Below are positions 19,894 through 46,581 of a DNA stretch of 46,581 bases, one piece after another. Below the pieces are notes generated by a model. The model saw only the letters and a program-made list of their open reading frames with translations. It ran no database searches and was not told the origin of the DNA. The first letter of the stretch is position 1. Each line of letters begins with the position of its first letter. The position numbers and the translations under genes are program-made. Source of the DNA: a virus; IMG/VR virus record IMGVR_UViG_3300035698_007270, positions 1 to 46,581 of that record. The stretch is one strand, 5' to 3'.

Positions 19894-20835
19894 CTACGAA
19901 GGAACGACTGCAATACCACCAGCTTCATTGGTTGCAGGCATGGTCCCATACACATGGGTATTGGACGTGTCTGACCAATCAGTGATGTTGTACGCAGCAC
20001 AATCCTTCAAAAGAACAATACCGTGAGTCGGTTCACTGATTGCAACCGTCAAGGTCTTGTCGTTGTCCATGTTAGCAAACGTGCAGCCATCAAATGTCAC
20101 CAAGGCCGCTTCACCACCAAGATTCACACCAGCCTTCACAAATATATGGCTCGTAGAACTTGCGTATGTGAAAATTCTGCAATCCTTGAAAATGGTCTGG
20201 GCATTGTTACCCTTGAACTCAATTTCGTAACCAGTTGTTGAAGAAACAGCCGTTGACCACTGACCAAAAGTGCAACGCTCAAACATGTTGTCCTGAGCAC
20301 CAGATGAAAGAGTAAGCTCATTATACGCTGCCGCACCTTCCGTGGCATTGATGGGGCCGTTAAACCCAACATTCCAGAAGTAATTCCGGTTGGCGCTTAC
20401 AATAATATTATCAAGGTTCGTGTTCGTTCCTTTTCCGTGCTGTACTTGGAAGTTGCTGAAAATACAACCCTGGCCAGACACAGTAATAATGGATGTCATG
20501 TCGGCACCCATTGTCAGCCTCGCCCTGTTCCCGTGGGTAATAGGAGCAGTTAAACCGACCATATGAGTGAACGTGTTTGACCACGCTACAGCCGCAGCAA
20601 TGGAATATGCTGTCCCGTTACCAACAATGTAAATGACATCGTTGTTGGCACTCGTTGTAAGAGAGTAGGCTTTTTCAACAGTTTTGACAGGTTTGTCAAT
20701 GCTTTTGCCAGAACTACCGTCGCTGCCATTTACGGAATCCACAAAGTACGCAGTCCCAGGCATAGTAAGACCCTGACCACCAAGTTGCGGAATGCCAAAA
20801 GACGTAATACCGTTTGGAAAATTTGTTAAAGGCAT
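19894..20835 (-). CDS. Right-handed beta-helix appendage protein, 313 aa
   Basis: Repeating short strands with regular spacing (residues 60-300), for example NDVIYIVGNG, SIITVSGQGCIFSNFQVQHG, NLDNIIVSANRNYFWNVGFNG, EIEFKGNNAQTIFKDCRIFTYASS and FDGCTFANMD, form a right-handed beta-helix of the tailspike/pectate-lyase type. Several rungs carry Cys or Phe at the same turn. A receptor-binding or enzymatic tailspike-like role is likely; the substrate is unknown. A clear ribosome binding site (GGAGATAAATT) precedes the ATG. Confidence 0.65.
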   Translation of the reverse strand: MPLTNFPNGITSFGIPQLGGQGLTMPGTAYFVDSVNGSDGSSGKSIDKPVKTVEKAYSLTTSANNDVIYIVGNGTAYSIAAAVAWSNTFTHMVGLTAPITHGNRARLTMGADMTSIITVSGQGCIFSNFQVQHGKGTNTNLDNIIVSANRNYFWNVGFNGPINATEGAAAYNELTLSSGAQDNMFERCTFGQWSTAVSSTTGYEIEFKGNNAQTIFKDCRIFTYASSTSHIFVKAGVNLGGEAALVTFDGCTFANMDNDKTLTVAISEPTHGIVLLKDCAAYNITDWSDTSNTHVYGTMPATNEAGGIAVVPS

Positions 20836-20878: not shown

Positions 20879-20906
20879 AAGCTGCCCCGTGGGATCGAAC
20901 CACGGC
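20879..20906 (-). other. tRNA 3'-end remnant (T-arm and acceptor half)
   Basis: On the minus strand a 6-bp stem (CCGTGG and CCACGG) closes the loop TTCGATC, a perfect tRNA T-arm. It is followed by GGCAGCTTCCA, which looks like an acceptor 3' strand. The matching 5' acceptor strand, D-arm and anticodon arm are absent in the preceding bases, which belong to the endonuclease gene. It is therefore a tRNA remnant rather than a tRNA gene, sitting directly after a homing-type endonuclease. Confidence 0.45.
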
Positions 20907-20918
20907 TTACACGTAAAA

Positions 20919-21827
20919 TTATTCGGCTTCGCTCGAAGCGTGTGTCTTTAAATATTGTATTGCGCTTTGTAGGTTTTCGGGGGAGTCCTGTAAGTTGCCT
21001 ATCCCACGGTTACAGTTACCGCATAAAAGACCCCGTATTTTACCAGTCGAATGGTCGTGATCTACATCAAATCTCTTGGCCATCCCATTATCCATATCTT
21101 CGACTCTTTTCCCACATATCGCGCAACAAAAGTTTTGGTATTCAAGCATCCTGTTGTAATCATCAATCGTAATCCCGAAATGTCGTTTCAAATCTGCATT
21201 AGTTCTCATTTCTGGGTTGATCACATCTCTATGCTTTGCATAACAAGCGCCACACATCTTTTTTGCATGGATCGGTTTTTTCCCACATACGGTACATAAC
21301 TTTGTCCCTTTAATGAGCCTAGTCCGGTTAGTGTGACCATGCCTTTTCTTTCTCGCAAAGCATTTCCTACAAAATCCTTGTGCTTTTATTGGTTTTACTT
21401 CGCCACACCCTCTACATTTTTTCGTCTTGCTTTCCTCTAATGACAAAGCATAGCACTTATTGCACAACCCTTTCGCCATCAGTTTTTTAAACTTTTTGCA
21501 ATTAGAGCATTCACCATGCCCAAGATTAAGTAGCCGTCCCTTCCCATAACAAACCTTACACAGACCTTTTGCATGGACAGGATATCGCTCACACTTAGAG
21601 CAAAGGTTGGCTCCTTTCTTAGGGCGTTCTCTATGTGTGGGATCACCATACCGAAGGAAAGCCATATAACACGCTGAACAATACCCTTTTGCTTTTAGAG
21701 GCTTACGTTCATTGCATCCACCACATATAGCGACAGACCTACGTGCTAAATCAACGCTATAGCACTGACCGCACATCCCTTTTGCTACAATTTTCGTTAC
21801 TTCCGATCCGCATTGAACGCATTCCAT
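20919..21827 (-). CDS. Endonuclease VII-type homing endonuclease with six zinc knuckles, 302 aa
   Basis: Residues 1-215 hold six tandem C-x2-C...AKG-x-C-x2-C-Y knuckles (for example ICGGCNERKPLKAKGYCSACY and LCTVCGKKPIHAKKMCGACY), which would bind DNA. The C-terminal 90 residues form an endonuclease VII catalytic domain: CCAICGKR, the DVDHDHSTGKIRGLLC catalytic core and CNRGIGNL. Free-standing enzymes of this type spread by homing. It has its own promoter and a strong ribosome binding site (AGGGGGTG), and lies directly downstream of the intron-containing capsid gene. The tRNA remnant at its 3' end may mark a past insertion site. Confidence 0.8.
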   Translation of the reverse strand: MECVQCGSEVTKIVAKGMCGQCYSVDLARRSVAICGGCNERKPLKAKGYCSACYMAFLRYGDPTHRERPKKGANLCSKCERYPVHAKGLCKVCYGKGRLLNLGHGECSNCKKFKKLMAKGLCNKCYALSLEESKTKKCRGCGEVKPIKAQGFCRKCFARKKRHGHTNRTRLIKGTKLCTVCGKKPIHAKKMCGACYAKHRDVINPEMRTNADLKRHFGITIDDYNRMLEYQNFCCAICGKRVEDMDNGMAKRFDVDHDHSTGKIRGLLCGNCNRGIGNLQDSPENLQSAIQYLKTHASSEAE

Positions 21828-21859
21828 TTTTTACACCCCCTATTGTTAATGTTTAAACA

Positions 21860-21888
21860 AAGGTAGCATAGTGTGTCGGAATCGTCAA
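21860..21888 (-). promoter_or_regulatory. Promoter for the endonuclease gene
   Basis: TTGACG (21888-21883), a 17-base spacer and TACCTT (21865-21860) lie about 30 bases before the endonuclease start. The A and final T of the -10 match the consensus. This would let the homing enzyme be expressed independently of the long virion transcript, as is common for homing endonuclease genes. Confidence 0.5.
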
Positions 21889-21922
21889 GCGAATAATAAT
21901 GTCAAAGAACTTTTTTTTGTAG

Positions 21923-21962
21923 GGTGCCCCCTCTTCAGCGGTTAGCCTCAGAGGAGAACACC
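21923..21962. other. Stable stem-loop between capsid gene and endonuclease gene
   Basis: Two helices (CTCCTCT with AGAGGGG, extended by GGTG with CACC) close a 15-base loop. On the minus strand it is followed by an A-tract, so it is not a rho-independent terminator for the leftward transcript; a T-tract lies on its other side. Possibly a transcript-processing or stability element, or part of a former mobile-element boundary. Confidence 0.4.
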
Positions 21963-21981
21963 GGCTAAGTGGTTGATTTTA

Positions 21982-23159
21982 CTACGCTCCTGGGCTCCCG
22001 AAGATGCCCCTGACGTCACTCGATCCGACTGAATATCTACAACTGGCTCGAAATTTCGCGTTCTCGGTATCGAAATCATTATCTGTGGCGAACGAGTCAC
22101 CACGACGCTCAAACATCTTCATCCCGTGCGGCGCATCGGTCTTGATAAACCAAGCATCCGTATCGGTCAGGAAGTGATTCACAACGATGTTCGGGATGCG
22201 GCCCAAGGTACGGATCGCATTCGTGTCGTTATTCGCCGTTCCACTCTGGAGGGTGGATTTCAGGATACGGACAGCATCGTACTCCAGCGCAGGTGGTATG
22301 ATCAGGGTCTTTGGGAGCACCTTGATAAGCATTCCACGGTCATTCTTGAACGCTGCAATATCGATACATGCCTGTTCCAGGGACGCCTCTGACAGATCAG
22401 CCGCAGTATCCAGCTCGTTCCGCCATGTACCACCAGACTTATTCAGGTGCAGCTCAGAGCAAAGCTCCAGGCCGTCACCGTAGGTGTATGAGTCGTTGAA
22501 CGCCCGGTTAAGGACATTCGCACTCACGGTCTCCTTGGTGTTCCTCATGGAGAAAGCCAAAGCCTGCGCCCGTTTCATCCCGATCTCTGCGTATTGATTA
22601 TCCTCGTACATTTCACGGGTGATTATGAAACCCAAACCGTAAGTGATATGGGTGTATCGGGTTATAAAACCCTGCTCCATATCGTCATAACTAATTGAAT
22701 TTCCTTCAGTTTTTATCGAAGCCTGACCGAACCCGGTCACTCCCACATCTTCCTCGAACGCTTTGGTGGACTTGGATTTATCGAAAATCTGAGGCCACTC
22801 TGGGGTGTACTCCTTATACGTCTTTCCATACCCGTTTATGTTCAAGTGAAATCGCTAATTCCACCCCGTTCCGTTAGGAACCGCTGCATGTTTCCATGCA
22901 GACCAGACCATATCTTCATCCTGTTACCAGGATGCTCCCCATTTCCACCCGCTTGGGTGTACTTCCTTTCGGAATGGTCGTTGAAGGTTCTCCATTTTCT
23001 ATAGAGCTTCCCTGCTGATTGTCTTCGGCGTTTCCCCGGTCAGAGTTTCCAGCAGTTAAAGGAGTTATCTCGACGCCATTACTGGCGTAAGGCCCAAGTA
23101 GTTTAGGCGTTAATTCCAGGCCACAATGCTTTTGCAAAGGAGCCGGTAGTAATAGTCAT
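21982..23159 (-). CDS. Major capsid protein, interrupted by a group I intron (301 aa when spliced)
   Basis: Exon 1 (23159-23105) encodes MTITTGSFAKALWPGINA plus the first base of a codon and follows an AAGGAG site. Exon 2 (22832-21982) begins GG, completing TGG (Trp), then YGKTYKEY. The joined junction reads LWPGINAWYGKTYKEY, the pattern I know from capsid proteins of this type (LWPGVNAWYG...). Downstream are STKAFEEDVGVTGFGQ and RYTHITYGLGFIITREMYED, and a Gly/Asp-rich C-terminus. Without splicing the gene stops after 18 codons at an in-frame TAA; a naive call would start at the TTG at 22845. It sits in the expected place after decoration-like and scaffold genes. Confidence 0.85.
22833..23104 (-). 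ncRNA. Group I intron (probably subgroup IA) in the capsid gene
   Basis: The 5' splice site ends exon 1 in GCCU, whose last U pairs with G in an internal guide (P1: GCCU with GGGC). P2 is ACGCCA-GUAA-UGGCGU. P4 pairs CUGCUG with CAGCAG, beside the element AATCAGCAGGGAAG. P7 is formed by GACCAT and ATGGTC, the latter in AAGATATGGTC, a hallmark of group I cores. P7.1 (TTCC-GAAA-GGAA) and P7.2 (CACCC-AAGC-GGGTG) point to subgroup IA. P8 is CATCCTG-GTAA-CAGGATG and P9 is CTGCATG-GAAA-CATGCAG. The intron ends in G before exon 2. It has no internal ORF worth keeping, so its mobility would depend on a nuclease in trans, plausibly the endonuclease VII-type gene next door. Confidence 0.85.
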
Positions 23160-28624: not shown

Positions 28625-30928
28625 TCAGTAACCTGTCATTTTATTGGGTTTACTTTTCGCGTATGATCTATCGTCGTACTCGTCAAAGTCGTTCCCGTAT
28701 TTATTGTCGTTCTCTACAGGCATTGCGTGTGTGAACGCCATGCTGTCCCCGACATCAGGAGAGGCCACGCCACGTCCCTTCGCGTCGGATTTCTTCTCAA
28801 GCTGTAATTTATCCCCAACAGCGTAGGTGTATTGGACGCTCGTAAGCTCCGCTATCAGTTCAGGATCGTTCGGAATGTCTCCACCAGCCTCAAGCCAGTC
28901 CTTCAGCTTGTCCCACATCTCGGCTCGTTTGTTCCGGTATCGTGGATTGTCAGGCTTCGACCCAGAATTTATCCCAATAACGTCCTTGAACCCTAGCGAG
29001 TACAGGCGATCAACGACCCCGGCACCAACGCCAACCACGTCCACGAACGTCATCCTGGCACGGTACTGGACTATCTTGTGGGCCACCCTGTCGGTGAACG
29101 CCATCAAATCAAGGTGTTTGAATTTCTTAATCTCTAAGGTATGAAGGCCCTGGCGGACGTAAATAACGCTCTTGTCGTCCCCGAATCGGGCCACATCCAC
29201 TCCTATTACTATAGGTGCCCATGAATATGTGTTCGGCAGGTTTACCCGTTTTGTGGCTTTATCAACCAGCTCCGTTGGGATTAAAGCGTTCTCAATCGCG
29301 GCCTCAAAATCGCAATTATGGACAGTTCTTCCGTTGATAATGTATGAATTGTCATGTTGGATAGCGAGATTGTAGACTGTCCCTCTGTAGACACGACGTG
29401 TTATTTTCCTGACCTTCACGCCAACGCCATGTTTCCCAGGGAATGTTTTTCTCACTTTGAATTTATCTTTTTGTTTCCACTTCGTGTTGATACGCACTTC
29501 GTATTTATCTTGGGTATTAATCGGACGACCTTGGAATTCAGATGGGCCACCTTTCGTTCTAGTTATGCCCCCAATCCAACCTTTCATGCCAGAAAGCATT
29601 TGAACGTCATAAGCTAAGTCTCTGCTAACTGTAATGTAGGAATAAATATCTTCAAATTTACACCCATCTCCCGCCATTAAAACATCGAAAAAAAGGTCTT
29701 CATGCCCAGAAATAATGCTCCAAGGTATCCGTTTATGTTGTGCTAACTTTCCACAATTAGTGATTAAGAAGTCACTGAAAGAGCATGATTTTATATGGAA
29801 AGTCCTTGCTGTCCCTGTATCGCTTTCGTGGATTTTGAGGTTTAATTTGGTGCAACAGTCTCTTATCTGAGCCGCTTCGTCCGGTCTATTTAGCCCTATC
29901 GAAATACAAGCGGACGTCTTACCATTGCTCCCATCAGAAATGTACCAAGCGGCCAATATGACAATTTCTTCTGAAACAACCTTCCCACCATATTTGCGTC
30001 TTGGGCGCACAAGTAAATCACCCTTTGCTATTTTAGAGGCAGGCACCCACTTGTACGTTTGGTCTTCTTTGGTATAGACTCTGACAGGATGTTTGGGAGT
30101 CACCTCAACAGGTTTCGCATCCCCATTAGTGTATATCTGGACAAGACGACCTTTATACGGCCTCTGAAACGATTCTTTAACTTGGCGGAATCTACCAGAA
30201 TGACCGAGTACAATATCCCCGACACAAACATCCTCGATAGGGACTTGGCCATTATCAGTGTAAACCAATGAACCGGCAGGGCAACACTCGAACTCTTGTC
30301 TGTACTGGGCGTCGCTCATCGAACGTCGCGCGTCAGCTAATTCTTCCCTATCCACCAGCTTGGTCTCAGAAACCGGGTATCTTGCGGAAAACCATGTCTC
30401 GTCATGAACCGCCTGCATGTATAAATCATAAAATATATTTCGACTTCTGGGAGTCCCAATAAAGCAGCACCAGCCCTTACGATCAGCCAATAAAGGCCGG
30501 ACAACTTCCCCCCAAATCTCAGGACGGCACTGGGCTACCTCATCAATAACGCAACCATCCAGGTAAATTCCACGAAGAGCGTCAGGTCGATCAGCTCCAT
30601 AAAGTTTTATCCTCGCTTGATCCCCCGATACACTCGGGACTTTCACCCACAATTCACTTTCATTGGTCTTCGAGTTAGGTAAAGCCTTCGTGTAATACTT
30701 CAAATAATCCCATGCAATCTCTTTAGCTTGAGCGTAGTAAGGTGCTATATAGGCGAATCTAGGCCGTTGCTTGTCGCAATAAACAGCAGACTTAATCAGG
30801 TGATTAATCATGGCGACACTTTTCCCGAGACGCCTGTGAGCAACCACAACAGCAAAACGGTGAGCGTCCAAACCACGATGGATTTCGCCCTGAACAAACC
30901 TTGGTTTATATGGGATATTTACTTTCAC
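28625..30928 (-). CDS. Large terminase subunit, intein-containing, 767 aa before splicing (443 after)
   Basis: The N-extein (residues 1-214) carries the ATPase: AHRRLGKS (residues 30-37, Walker A variant), CVIDEVA (126-132, Walker B) and FIGTP (156-160). The C-extein (539-767) holds a RNase H-like nuclease with likely Asp ligands at 578 (VIGVDVA), 630 (MTFVDVV) and 728 (SPDVGDSM). Between them residues 215-538 form a complete intein. Splicing would join QEFE to CDFEAAI, a natural terminase sequence. The gene starts in an ATGA overlap and follows the small terminase by a cluster of tiny genes. Confidence 0.85.
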   Translation of the reverse strand: MKVNIPYKPRFVQGEIHRGLDAHRFAVVVAHRRLGKSVAMINHLIKSAVYCDKQRPRFAYIAPYYAQAKEIAWDYLKYYTKALPNSKTNESELWVKVPSVSGDQARIKLYGADRPDALRGIYLDGCVIDEVAQCRPEIWGEVVRPLLADRKGWCCFIGTPRSRNIFYDLYMQAVHDETWFSARYPVSETKLVDREELADARRSMSDAQYRQEFECCPAGSLVYTDNGQVPIEDVCVGDIVLGHSGRFRQVKESFQRPYKGRLVQIYTNGDAKPVEVTPKHPVRVYTKEDQTYKWVPASKIAKGDLLVRPRRKYGGKVVSEEIVILAAWYISDGSNGKTSACISIGLNRPDEAAQIRDCCTKLNLKIHESDTGTARTFHIKSCSFSDFLITNCGKLAQHKRIPWSIISGHEDLFFDVLMAGDGCKFEDIYSYITVSRDLAYDVQMLSGMKGWIGGITRTKGGPSEFQGRPINTQDKYEVRINTKWKQKDKFKVRKTFPGKHGVGVKVRKITRRVYRGTVYNLAIQHDNSYIINGRTVHNCDFEAAIENALIPTELVDKATKRVNLPNTYSWAPIVIGVDVARFGDDKSVIYVRQGLHTLEIKKFKHLDLMAFTDRVAHKIVQYRARMTFVDVVGVGAGVVDRLYSLGFKDVIGINSGSKPDNPRYRNKRAEMWDKLKDWLEAGGDIPNDPELIAELTSVQYTYAVGDKLQLEKKSDAKGRGVASPDVGDSMAFTHAMPVENDNKYGNDFDEYDDRSYAKSKPNKMTGY
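29315..30286 (-). other. Intein with LAGLIDADG homing endonuclease, 324 aa
   Basis: Begins CCPAGSLVY (block A, catalytic Cys first, Gly/Ser at usual positions) and has a block B (GDAKPVEVTPKHPV with T277 and H280 of the precursor). The middle carries two LAGLIDADG-like helices: ILAAWYISDGS (324-334) and FFDVLMAGDG (413-422), plus a KRIP stretch (399-402). The C-terminus reads VYNLAIQHDNSYIINGRTVHN, ending His-Asn before Cys539. All parts for protein splicing and DNA cleavage seem intact. The insertion sits just after the ATPase core, before the nuclease domain. Confidence 0.85.
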
Positions 30929-41525: not shown

Positions 41526-42005
41526 TCATATCTCCACCTCAATATCGAACTCCGCCGAGCATTCTTTACATTGGACCTTCAGCCGCTTGACCTTCGGCAC
41601 CTTCTCTTTGGCCGGTCCACGTATCTCTTCCCGTAGCTGCTGGACGGTGAGCGCACCCTCAGCCGCTATCTCAAGCCATTCACGCTGCTGATCTGGATCG
41701 AACCTTGCCACCTCAGCGTGGATACTGAAAGACAGCGTAGGCCAGCGGTCGTCTTTCGATATGCGGGCACAGACCCATTTGAAGTTCATCATTGTCTTTG
41801 GCTCATGGCCCGTCCCGATATCGGGCAGCATTTGTGCCCAGGTGCCAGGAAACAGGTCTTCAATGTAATTCAACCAATCTCCGATCCAAAACCCAACATT
41901 CTGCCCCATCGCAAACAGACTATTTGACACCACAACTGCCTGATCCCATGAAGGAACAACGGCCACATCGAGTCTACATTCTTCGTGCTTGACTATTTCT
42001 CCCAT
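41526..42005 (-). CDS. Phage/plasmid family protein of unknown function, 159 aa
   Basis: Start at 42005. WIGDWLNYIEDLFPGTWAQ, then NFKWVCARISKDDRWPTLSFSIHAEVARF and LTVQQLREEIR match a conserved pattern of uncharacterized phage and plasmid proteins (WxIGDWLxxxE, R..LSxxxHxxVA, LSVxxLR). A C-terminal VQCKECSAEFDIEV adds a CxxC. Stop lies 4 bases into the operon spacing. Biochemical role not known. Confidence 0.5.
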   Translation of the reverse strand: MGEIVKHEECRLDVAVVPSWDQAVVVSNSLFAMGQNVGFWIGDWLNYIEDLFPGTWAQMLPDIGTGHEPKTMMNFKWVCARISKDDRWPTLSFSIHAEVARFDPDQQREWLEIAAEGALTVQQLREEIRGPAKEKVPKVKRLKVQCKECSAEFDIEVEI

Positions 42006-42298
42006 ATTCTTATCCACTCCCCCATGTACTTGATCACGACCATTAATAATTCTTCCCTGCCTATGTTCATTTTACGAAACCTGGACCCATAGTCATGAAT
42101 GGCGGTGTGACATTCACGGCAGACAGGGATACTCAGATAGTCACTTGGGACCAGACCACCGCAGTCCTCGGCAAACCTGACATGATGAGGATCACCAGGC
42201 CCCGCCTTCCCACACGCGAAACAGTCCTTGCCCCTGATCATGTCCTTGTACTTCTCGCTTCTCCACCGCTTTTCTACTGGGTCTGCGTAGATCACCAT
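41993..42298 (-). CDS. HNH/DUF968-like nuclease, 101 aa
   Basis: I start at 42298 (GGGGAGACG site), not 42484. CFACGKAGPGDPHHVRFAEDCGGLVPSDYLSIPVCRECHTAIHDYGSRF has C-x2-C, DPHH, C-x2-CH and H, the HNH-type fold of phage recombination-associated nucleases (DUF968/NinG-like). It sits within the replication and recombination block. Confidence 0.7.
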   Translation of the reverse strand: MVIYADPVEKRWRSEKYKDMIRGKDCFACGKAGPGDPHHVRFAEDCGGLVPSDYLSIPVCRECHTAIHDYGSRFRKMNIGREELLMVVIKYMGEWIRIWEK

Positions 42299-42311
42299 CG
42301 TCTCCCCTTTG

Positions 42312-42638
42312 TTAATCCGTATAAATGTTCCCTGTAATTTCAGCGTATCCAACGTCACCCTCTCCAAGACAGGGCCAATAGTGAGGCTCACATACCAAAG
42401 AAAAACATCCTTCAAGGAAAACAACTTCGGCTGGGTCGTACTCGATACCACCGATAATCGCATGAGAAATAATATCGCCTTCATAAATCTCAGTACCGTT
42501 TTTGTCTTTCAACCCTGTAAATGGGAGTATAATGGCCTCACTGGTTAAATTCGATATCCATGCCGGTGCGTCTGCCAATAACAAACCTTGAGGGCCGCAC
42601 ATACAACCCATATCCCACGCTTTTATTTTCAGCTCCAT
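42312..42638 (-). CDS. YopX-like protein, 108 aa
   Basis: Start at 42638 (GGGGAGGAA). MELKIKAWDMG, then AIILPFTGLKDKNGTEIYEGDIISH and a final AEITGNIYTD match the YopX family found in many phages (L.FTGLKD.NG.EIYEGDI). Function unknown. Confidence 0.65.
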   Translation of the reverse strand: MELKIKAWDMGCMCGPQGLLLADAPAWISNLTSEAIILPFTGLKDKNGTEIYEGDIISHAIIGGIEYDPAEVVFLEGCFSLVCEPHYWPCLGEGDVGYAEITGNIYTD

Positions 42639-45207: not shown

Positions 45208-45765
45208 TTACTCTACTATTGGATGTTGGTACATGAGATAATCAAGTATTTCATCCGCTACTTTGAACGGGGCATCCGTAATTTCTTTTCCTGTGTAATG
45301 GAACACCTCGTATCCGCTCGATTGTAGGAACCGATCTCGTTTTTTTTCATACCGACGTTCTTTTTCTGTGCGTTCATGCCAATCGTGTCCATCACATTCT
45401 ATAATGATAGTTTTTCCGCCGTTTAATATTTTATCATCCCCCGGCCTTCCGTTTTTGTTTGGCCATGCACAGCAATGGTATGAAACAGCGAAATCAACCC
45501 GAAACTTACCTACCTTGTGCTGTGGGTCTACGTTTAACCCTTCGCTGCACTCAAATCTCCAGGAACGGTTTGAACGTCCCCATATTTGCGGTTCTCCATC
45601 TGAAAGGTTCCTTTCAATCCTCGTTGTTACCAAAGCCGAGTAAAGCATCCTCTCAATAGGTGATTCCATAGGGGGATTCCCGCTTTCTTCCCAATCGTCA
45701 AGCTGTTCTTCTAGGTGGATAGACGCCCTCTTGAGACATTCCTCTCTCATTTCTTCTTCTTTCAT
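45208..45765 (-). CDS. DUF559/Vsr-like PD-(D/E)xK nuclease, 185 aa
   Basis: PIERMLYSAL in the middle, then FRVDFAVSY, TIIIECDGHDWHERTEKERRYEKKRDRFL and GYEVFHYTGKEI: the nuclease core of the DUF559/Vsr superfamily (D in VDF, E-x-D in ECDG). It likely cuts DNA during recombination or host takeover. Confidence 0.7.
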   Translation of the reverse strand: MKEEEMREECLKRASIHLEEQLDDWEESGNPPMESPIERMLYSALVTTRIERNLSDGEPQIWGRSNRSWRFECSEGLNVDPQHKVGKFRVDFAVSYHCCAWPNKNGRPGDDKILNGGKTIIIECDGHDWHERTEKERRYEKKRDRFLQSSGYEVFHYTGKEITDAPFKVADEILDYLMYQHPIVE

Positions 45766-45929
45766 CCCGCCGCCTCCATCGCCTTTGCTTCGGCCACCTG
45801 CCCCATGAGTAGATCAACCGCCTTAACCTGGTCCACCTGGCCCATGAGTTCCCGGTCCCGCGACCGGTATTCAGACAGCGTCAATCCGAGATGAAACGCT
45901 TTCATTTCTTCAACTTCGTAATCATTCAT
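45762..45929 (-). CDS. Small helical protein, 55 aa
   Basis: MNDYEVEEMKAFHLGLTLSEYRSRDRELMGQVDQVKAVDLLMGQVAEAKAMEAAG. Overlaps the ERF gene by 8 bases and the next gene by 4 (ATGA). Two related LMGQV units. All-helical, function unknown. Below the length of usual ORF calls. Confidence 0.55.
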   Translation of the reverse strand: MNDYEVEEMKAFHLGLTLSEYRSRDRELMGQVDQVKAVDLLMGQVAEAKAMEAAG

Positions 45930-46581
45930 CCGGCACCGCCTTTTTCTTCAGCTCATTCAGTCGGTCTTCAATCTTCCCGTACAGCTCCAGTGCCTTCTCC
46001 CTGCCCTGGCCTTTCATCTCGTTGGAATGGGTTACCCCGTATGTCCCCAGCGCCTCGTAGTATTTATCATCGCCCCCGGTCATCTCCTTTAGCTCCGGTT
46101 TCAGTTTGGCCATAGCGTTAATGAAATTCTTGACCCAAACTTCAGGGTTGGGGGCGGGGCCTTTTTTCGTTTCCACATTTGCCAGTTTGCTTTTCGTTGG
46201 TTTCTCTGCCCCTGTAACGGCGTCAAGCGGGTCTGCCTCGCTGATTTCCAAAGCACAGAGATACAGGTAACGTCTCTGGTACGACTCAACAGCACCTATA
46301 TTCTGCACCTCATGACAAGCCTTCAATTTTGCCGAACCTAGTGGGGACGTGAAATCTACTTGCGTCTTGTCTTCCGTGTCGTGGATTCTCAGGTTCGCGA
46401 AATCGTTAGTGAATGTGACAACCCCGCATAGCCCAGCTTCAAGGAATAACTCGTTGATCGTTGGCAGGAAATCTCCCATTTCGTAATAGGCGTATTCTGA
46501 GTATTTGTTCCAACCGGACTTTTTCAGATTTTTGTTCTGTAACTCAACCCTTGCCTTTTGCAACTTTTGATACACAGACAT
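45922..46581 (-). CDS. ERF-family single-strand annealing recombinase, 219 aa
   Basis: MSVYQKLQKARVELQNKNLKKSGWNKYSEYAYYEMGDFLPTINELFLEAGL and FTSPLGSAKLKACHEVQNIGAVESYQRRYLYLCALEI match the ERF annealing core (start helix, YxYxxxxD, and the ESYxRRYxLxxAL motif). The end is a charged tail with VPDE. Its ATG coincides with the window end, so an upstream start cannot be excluded. It feeds recombination with the RuvC-like gene. Confidence 0.8.
   Translation of the reverse strand: MSVYQKLQKARVELQNKNLKKSGWNKYSEYAYYEMGDFLPTINELFLEAGLCGVVTFTNDFANLRIHDTEDKTQVDFTSPLGSAKLKACHEVQNIGAVESYQRRYLYLCALEISEADPLDAVTGAEKPTKSKLANVETKKGPAPNPEVWVKNFINAMAKLKPELKEMTGGDDKYYEALGTYGVTHSNEMKGQGREKALELYGKIEDRLNELKKKAVPDE

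Follow-up and report, generated by a model that had tools for sequence, protein, structure and literature searches.

The gene at positions 20919-21827 (minus strand) of the viral DNA IMGVR_UViG_3300035698_007270 (IMG/VR record, positions 1 to 46,581; in the following, the window denotes this whole stretch of 46,581 nucleotides) probably encodes a free-standing homing endonuclease of the EndoVII/DHHRN family, as judged from sequence comparison. The 302-amino-acid protein carries a catalytic EndoVII domain with a complete active site behind an array of six zinc modules. Its gene is located between a major capsid gene, which is itself interrupted by a group I intron without an open reading frame (ORF), and the next structural gene. 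It is optional at this place, is preceded by a conserved promoter region and has counterparts at the same position in other phages.

The catalytic domain (20946-21191, minus strand) was identified by Pfam as Endonuclease_7 (PF02945), matching residues 213-294 of 302 with E=1.7e-23. The motif CxxC-DHxH-R-CxxCN is complete, comprising C235, C238, D256, H257, H259, R265, C269, C272 and N273. These residues define the DHHRN family of homing endonucleases, in which the motif is C-terminal in the endonuclease clade and N-terminal in resolvases (PMC6083498); in the protein described here it occupies the C-terminal position typical of the endonuclease clade. F-CphI, a proven homing endonuclease reported to cut intronless psbA at the intron site and to be inhibited when the intron is present (PMC6083498), shares 44.9% identity with the nuclease in its C-terminal, catalytic half (E=4e-20). 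A homing-type nuclease had been proposed in the first-pass annotation, and this proposal is well supported by the complete DHHRN site, the C-terminal motif, the sporadic occurrence between conserved genes and the 45% identity to F-CphI. The nearest solved sequence is the restriction enzyme Hpy99I (phmmer, E=7e-8), whose match is confined to the catalytic domain, the matched part being without a tandem zinc array.

The N-terminal residues 3-195 (21243-21821, minus strand) comprise six tandem modules of the form CxxC-x(9-12)-CxxC at residues 3-22, 35-53, 76-93, 107-125, 138-156 and 178-195. The gene had been described as a six-knuckle EndoVII-type gene; number and domain are correct, whereas the term knuckle is loose, as the modules are Cys4 hairpin-plus-helix units and not CCHC knuckles. 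Since modules 1, 2 and 3 find their best matches in modules 4, 5 and 6 in register (block score 225.5 compared to a best score of 69 in 300 shuffles), the array consists of two copies of a three-module block, ABC-ABC, with 42 of 98 aligned residues identical between the two blocks. By pattern count, the 80 nearest EndoVII loci contain at most two such modules each. An AlphaFold2 model based on an 11-sequence alignment (mean predicted local distance difference test score, pLDDT, 78; predicted template modeling score, pTM, 0.39) places one helix in each of the six modules and predicts the catalytic domain with confidence; given its low pTM, it does not fix how the modules are arranged relative to each other.

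EndoVII genes recur behind capsid genes of the Mu GpT-like family. The searches were evaluated for the best 80 loci each, and the contigs are fragments. Of the 80 EndoVII-selected loci, nine carry a capsid gene of this family immediately upstream in the same orientation (L125, L127, L129, L133, L137, L149, L162, L187 and L196). Two more loci, L216 and L268, were found in a module scan and likewise contain an EndoVII gene directly behind this capsid family, giving 11 loci besides the window. The capsid gene is intronless in all 11, and neither an Rfam search nor a covariance model of such introns (R1) detected an intron there. The N-terminal parts of these nucleases differ: zinc-type modules are present in L216, L268, L125 and L137, and an HNH_3-like segment in L127, L149, L187 and L196. 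Since sister nucleases that differ in their N-terminal parts occupy this place in distant phages, it appears to be a recurrent landing site. On a tree of the EndoVII domains, the capsid-downstream state requires about nine changes.

The gene is also optional. In L002, L004, L008, L017 and L370 no nuclease gene separates the capsid gene from its downstream neighbor, and pairs of filled and empty sites have capsid identities of 94% (L187 and L370), 78% (L216 and L002) and 72% (L125 and L349). The next structural gene of the window (19894-20835, minus strand) directly follows the capsid gene in the nuclease-lacking loci L004, L008, L017 and L019, and is partial in L002. The nuclease gene thus seems to be optional and rare, yet recurrent behind GpT-like capsid genes.

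Several points weigh against this view. No EndoVII gene was found behind the capsid gene in any of 88 capsid-selected IMG/VR loci or 11 phage records with enough downstream DNA. With the nuclease gene this rare (0/99 capsid-selected), its recurrence rests on the endonuclease-selected and module-selected loci. In addition, 65 of the 108 inner branches of the EndoVII tree are open, leaving it poorly resolved, seven of the 11 capsid-side loci fall into one capsid clade and could be explained by a single ancestral insertion, and the window has few close relatives.

Other putative mobile genes were seen around such capsid genes. Another relative, with an intronless capsid gene, has an EndoVII-type gene inserted upstream within its capsid operon (L012:1630-2043). 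In Caulobacter phage GB2A, a gene of 516 amino acids annotated as 'homing endonuclease' lies directly behind the GpT-like capsid gene (L369:3537-5087); the EndoVII profile does not match it, and it is possibly another nuclease type at the same spot. In L149, a second ORF (MPYAEDFCGVYKIINTQSNLCYVGQS...), GIY-YIG-like by eye, follows the EndoVII gene about 986 nucleotides past the capsid stop, which suggests stacked homing nucleases behind the capsid gene.

Scanning for the signature of the zinc modules revealed a homolog of the nuclease in L216 (IMGVR_UViG_3300031601_000157). This EndoVII protein shares 57% identity over 262 residues, has a five-module array of the form BC-ABC, and starts 152 nucleotides past the stop of a homologous intronless capsid gene (64.5% identical to the capsid of the window). 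A scan with the nuclease as a single protein returned nothing, a search for the N-terminal zinc array in phages gave no match, and no relative came up in a scan of genome contigs.

The comparison with L216 also bears on the earlier statement that the nuclease gene has its own promoter. A strict sigma-70 consensus scan listed no promoter for the gene. On the other hand, the block upstream of both nucleases is conserved between the window and L216, starting from an A-run at 21916, with an alignment score of 30.5 compared to 20 for the highest-scoring of 1000 shuffles. Within this region (21828-21916, minus strand), the window contains promoter-like boxes, TTGACG (21888-21883) and TACCTT (21865-21860) with a spacing of 17, followed by a leader; the counterpart in L216 is TTGACT-16-TATAAT. 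The claim of a promoter is therefore backed by conservation and by TTGAC boxes in both sequences, and not by the strict consensus. Further upstream lies a stem-loop-like sequence (21916-21980, minus strand; GGTG...CACC) with a possible TTAGCC/GGCTAA pseudoknot. Downstream of the gene, a T-arm-like hairpin, CCGTGGTTCGATCCCACGG, is located at 20880-20910 (minus strand). A tRNA at this position was rejected: ARAGORN finds none, L002 has a comparable hairpin at that place, and near-matches to the hairpin 11-mer occur three times in the window with 0.9 expected, which was counted against a tRNA.

The capsid gene upstream consists of exon 1 (23105-23159, minus strand) and exon 2 (21982-22832, minus strand; Mu GpT-like major capsid, phrog_371/133, 123 relatives), separated by a group I intron of 272 nucleotides (22833-23104, minus strand). 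The Rfam model RF00028 matches at 22884-23114 with 82.9 bits and E=1e-19. Exon 1 ends in GCCU, forming a U-G pair with a GGGC guide at the 5' splice site and followed directly by AAACUACUUGGGC; the intron ends in G. Joining of the exons yields a GpT-like capsid protein of 301 amino acids (MTITTGSFAKALWPGINAWYGKTYKEY...) that aligns gap-free with its relatives. The element thus combines a conserved catalytic core with the U-G pair, a terminal G and a clean exon join. As the first-pass annotation had stated, no ORF of note is present in its 272 nucleotides.

No second intron of this kind was found in a capsid gene. The capsid gene is contiguous across the intron site in 123 capsid-bearing loci; one further locus besides the window was unscored at this site, as the contig end cuts the gene. 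R1 detected no other intron in 92 capsid-context sources; it was built from the window, L152 and L157, so that its matches to these three are by construction, whereas its negatives are informative. A search for the exact intron-junction pattern gave no match. A gapped intron-site pattern gave 33 stretches, 30 of them capsid-coding and all 30 intronless, with no further intron; this pattern recurs by chance inside capsid coding sequence. A regular-expression screen for P7 misses the introns of L152 and L157 and was superseded by the Rfam search and R1. Taken together, intron and nuclease co-occur in the window only, 11 loci have the nuclease only, none has the intron only, and about 99 have neither.

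For a free-standing homing endonuclease, the following course can be envisaged. Together with its own promoter, the gene would have entered between the capsid gene and the following structural gene. Its product would select a site through the six-module zinc array and cut with the C-terminal EndoVII domain, presumably in or near the capsid gene of related phage genomes that lack the nuclease. Repair of the cut would then copy the nuclease gene into the recipient, i.e., intronless homing. Whether the capsid intron takes part is a separate question. By the criterion that the first-pass annotation itself had set, relatives with one element but not the other, the pairing is not obligatory: 11 other loci combine the nuclease with an intronless capsid gene, including the 57%-identical L216.

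The closest known arrangement is psbA/F-CphI of cyanophage S-PM2, where F-CphI starts 66 nucleotides behind the intron-bearing psbA. In the two IMG/VR loci closest to F-CphI, L152 and L157, a group I intron likewise lies immediately upstream (Rfam, R1). With S-PM2 the window shares the layout of an intron-bearing gene followed by a free-standing nuclease with complete DHHRN residues, a configuration already known to work in one system. The window differs in having a capsid gene instead of psbA and a six-module zinc array, while F-CphI has one zinc-type segment; a homolog of the window nuclease (L216) occurs without the intron, and cleavage at the intron site, shown for F-CphI (PMC6083498), is a possibility for the window nuclease. 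Among Cluster J mycobacteriophages (PMC3706429), LittleE has an intron in its capsid gene as in the window, but its nuclease sits inside the intron and is LAGLIDADG-like; BAKA likewise has an ORF-less intron, located in a tail gene. Homing endonuclease genes (HEGs) next to essential genes of phages ICP1 and T4 are optional nucleases at boundaries of conserved genes, as in the window, and the ICP1 terminase gene presents a comparable case of an adjacent intron (PMC10448857). Those nucleases are of the T5orf172/GIY-YIG and HNH_3 types (PMC10448857), in contrast to the EndoVII type behind a GpT-like capsid gene.

We consider it an even chance that intron and nuclease are independent elements brought together by HEG turnover, the intron having arrived alone or lost its own nuclease and the free-standing gene having come separately to an often-used spot. 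EndoVII genes without introns use this spot in 11 loci, another phage (L102) shows that intron-borne EndoVII and HNH ORFs exist, turnover has been proposed as the origin of such pairs (PMC10448857), and the phage of the window also has an intein in its terminase gene. Against independence, no remnant ORF is visible in the 272-nucleotide intron, and such introns are seldom encountered: the 92 capsid-context sources other than the window contain none, and among the endonuclease-selected loci they occur in L152 and L157 only. This rarity makes a chance neighbor unlikely, though the window was picked for the pairing. Overall, turnover explains the data equally well or better than a nuclease targeting the intron site.

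Strict collaborative homing, which the first-pass annotation had raised as a possibility, is plausible but less likely than not. Here the nuclease would cut intronless capsid genes between GCCT and GGTATGG, the intron would block self-cutting, and both would spread together; the ORF-less intron may then be a passenger whose insertion destroys the nuclease target. The layout of S-PM2 psbA/F-CphI (PMC6083498), the ORF-less intron, the EndoVII family and the rarity of such introns speak for it. In contrast, no other intron-bearing capsid gene was found, and the nuclease does not need the intron, because the L216 homolog and ten sister loci exist beside intronless capsid genes. A protective change at the L216 intron site was considered and rejected, because its motif ALLPGVHKWVG has the same residues in nuclease-lacking L002. 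The exon junction and the flanks of the nuclease gene share no similarity beyond that of shuffled sequences. Finding both elements in one genome carries little statistical weight, because the window was chosen for having both. A dependence of the nuclease on the intron thus finds no support.

An extended version, which we regard as rather unlikely, is that of a modular zinc-array homing nuclease: the ABC-ABC array would read a long capsid site, five- and six-module forms would read different lengths, and the enzyme would mobilize the ORF-less, site-splitting intron in trans. A resident Holliday-junction or branch nuclease resembling T4 EndoVII and acting in replication or packaging is very improbable: T4 EndoVII is the top Foldseek match of the model (probability 0.99), but only residues 225-280 align to this protein (T4 gp49), short of the full-length match expected of an EndoVII-type resolvase, the motif is C-terminal, whereas the resolvase clade has it at the N-terminus (PMC6083498), close relatives (L002- and L370-type) lack the gene, and the N-terminal parts vary among loci.

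Other mobile and recombination genes were noted. The terminase large subunit gene (28625-30928, minus strand) is interrupted in frame by an intein spanning about residues 216-541 (Intein_splicing 249-538, Hint_2 215-278), so that intein, group I intron and free-standing nuclease all occur among the head genes of this phage. In another phage, L102 (6478-9410), a structural gene is split by three group I introns holding EndoVII- and HNH-type ORFs. Recombination genes elsewhere in the genome (all minus strand) encode an MTES_1575/DUF559 nuclease (45208-45765), a DUF968 protein (41993-42484) and an Erf-like annealing protein (45922-46581).

Homing-nuclease genes of the EndoVII type thus appear to have a recurrent landing site behind GpT-like capsid genes of uncultured phages. 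The capsid gene would be the second gene type among the very few candidate loci for collaborative homing, and the natural five- and six-module arrays may serve as a direct test case for additive DNA reading by tandem phage zinc modules.
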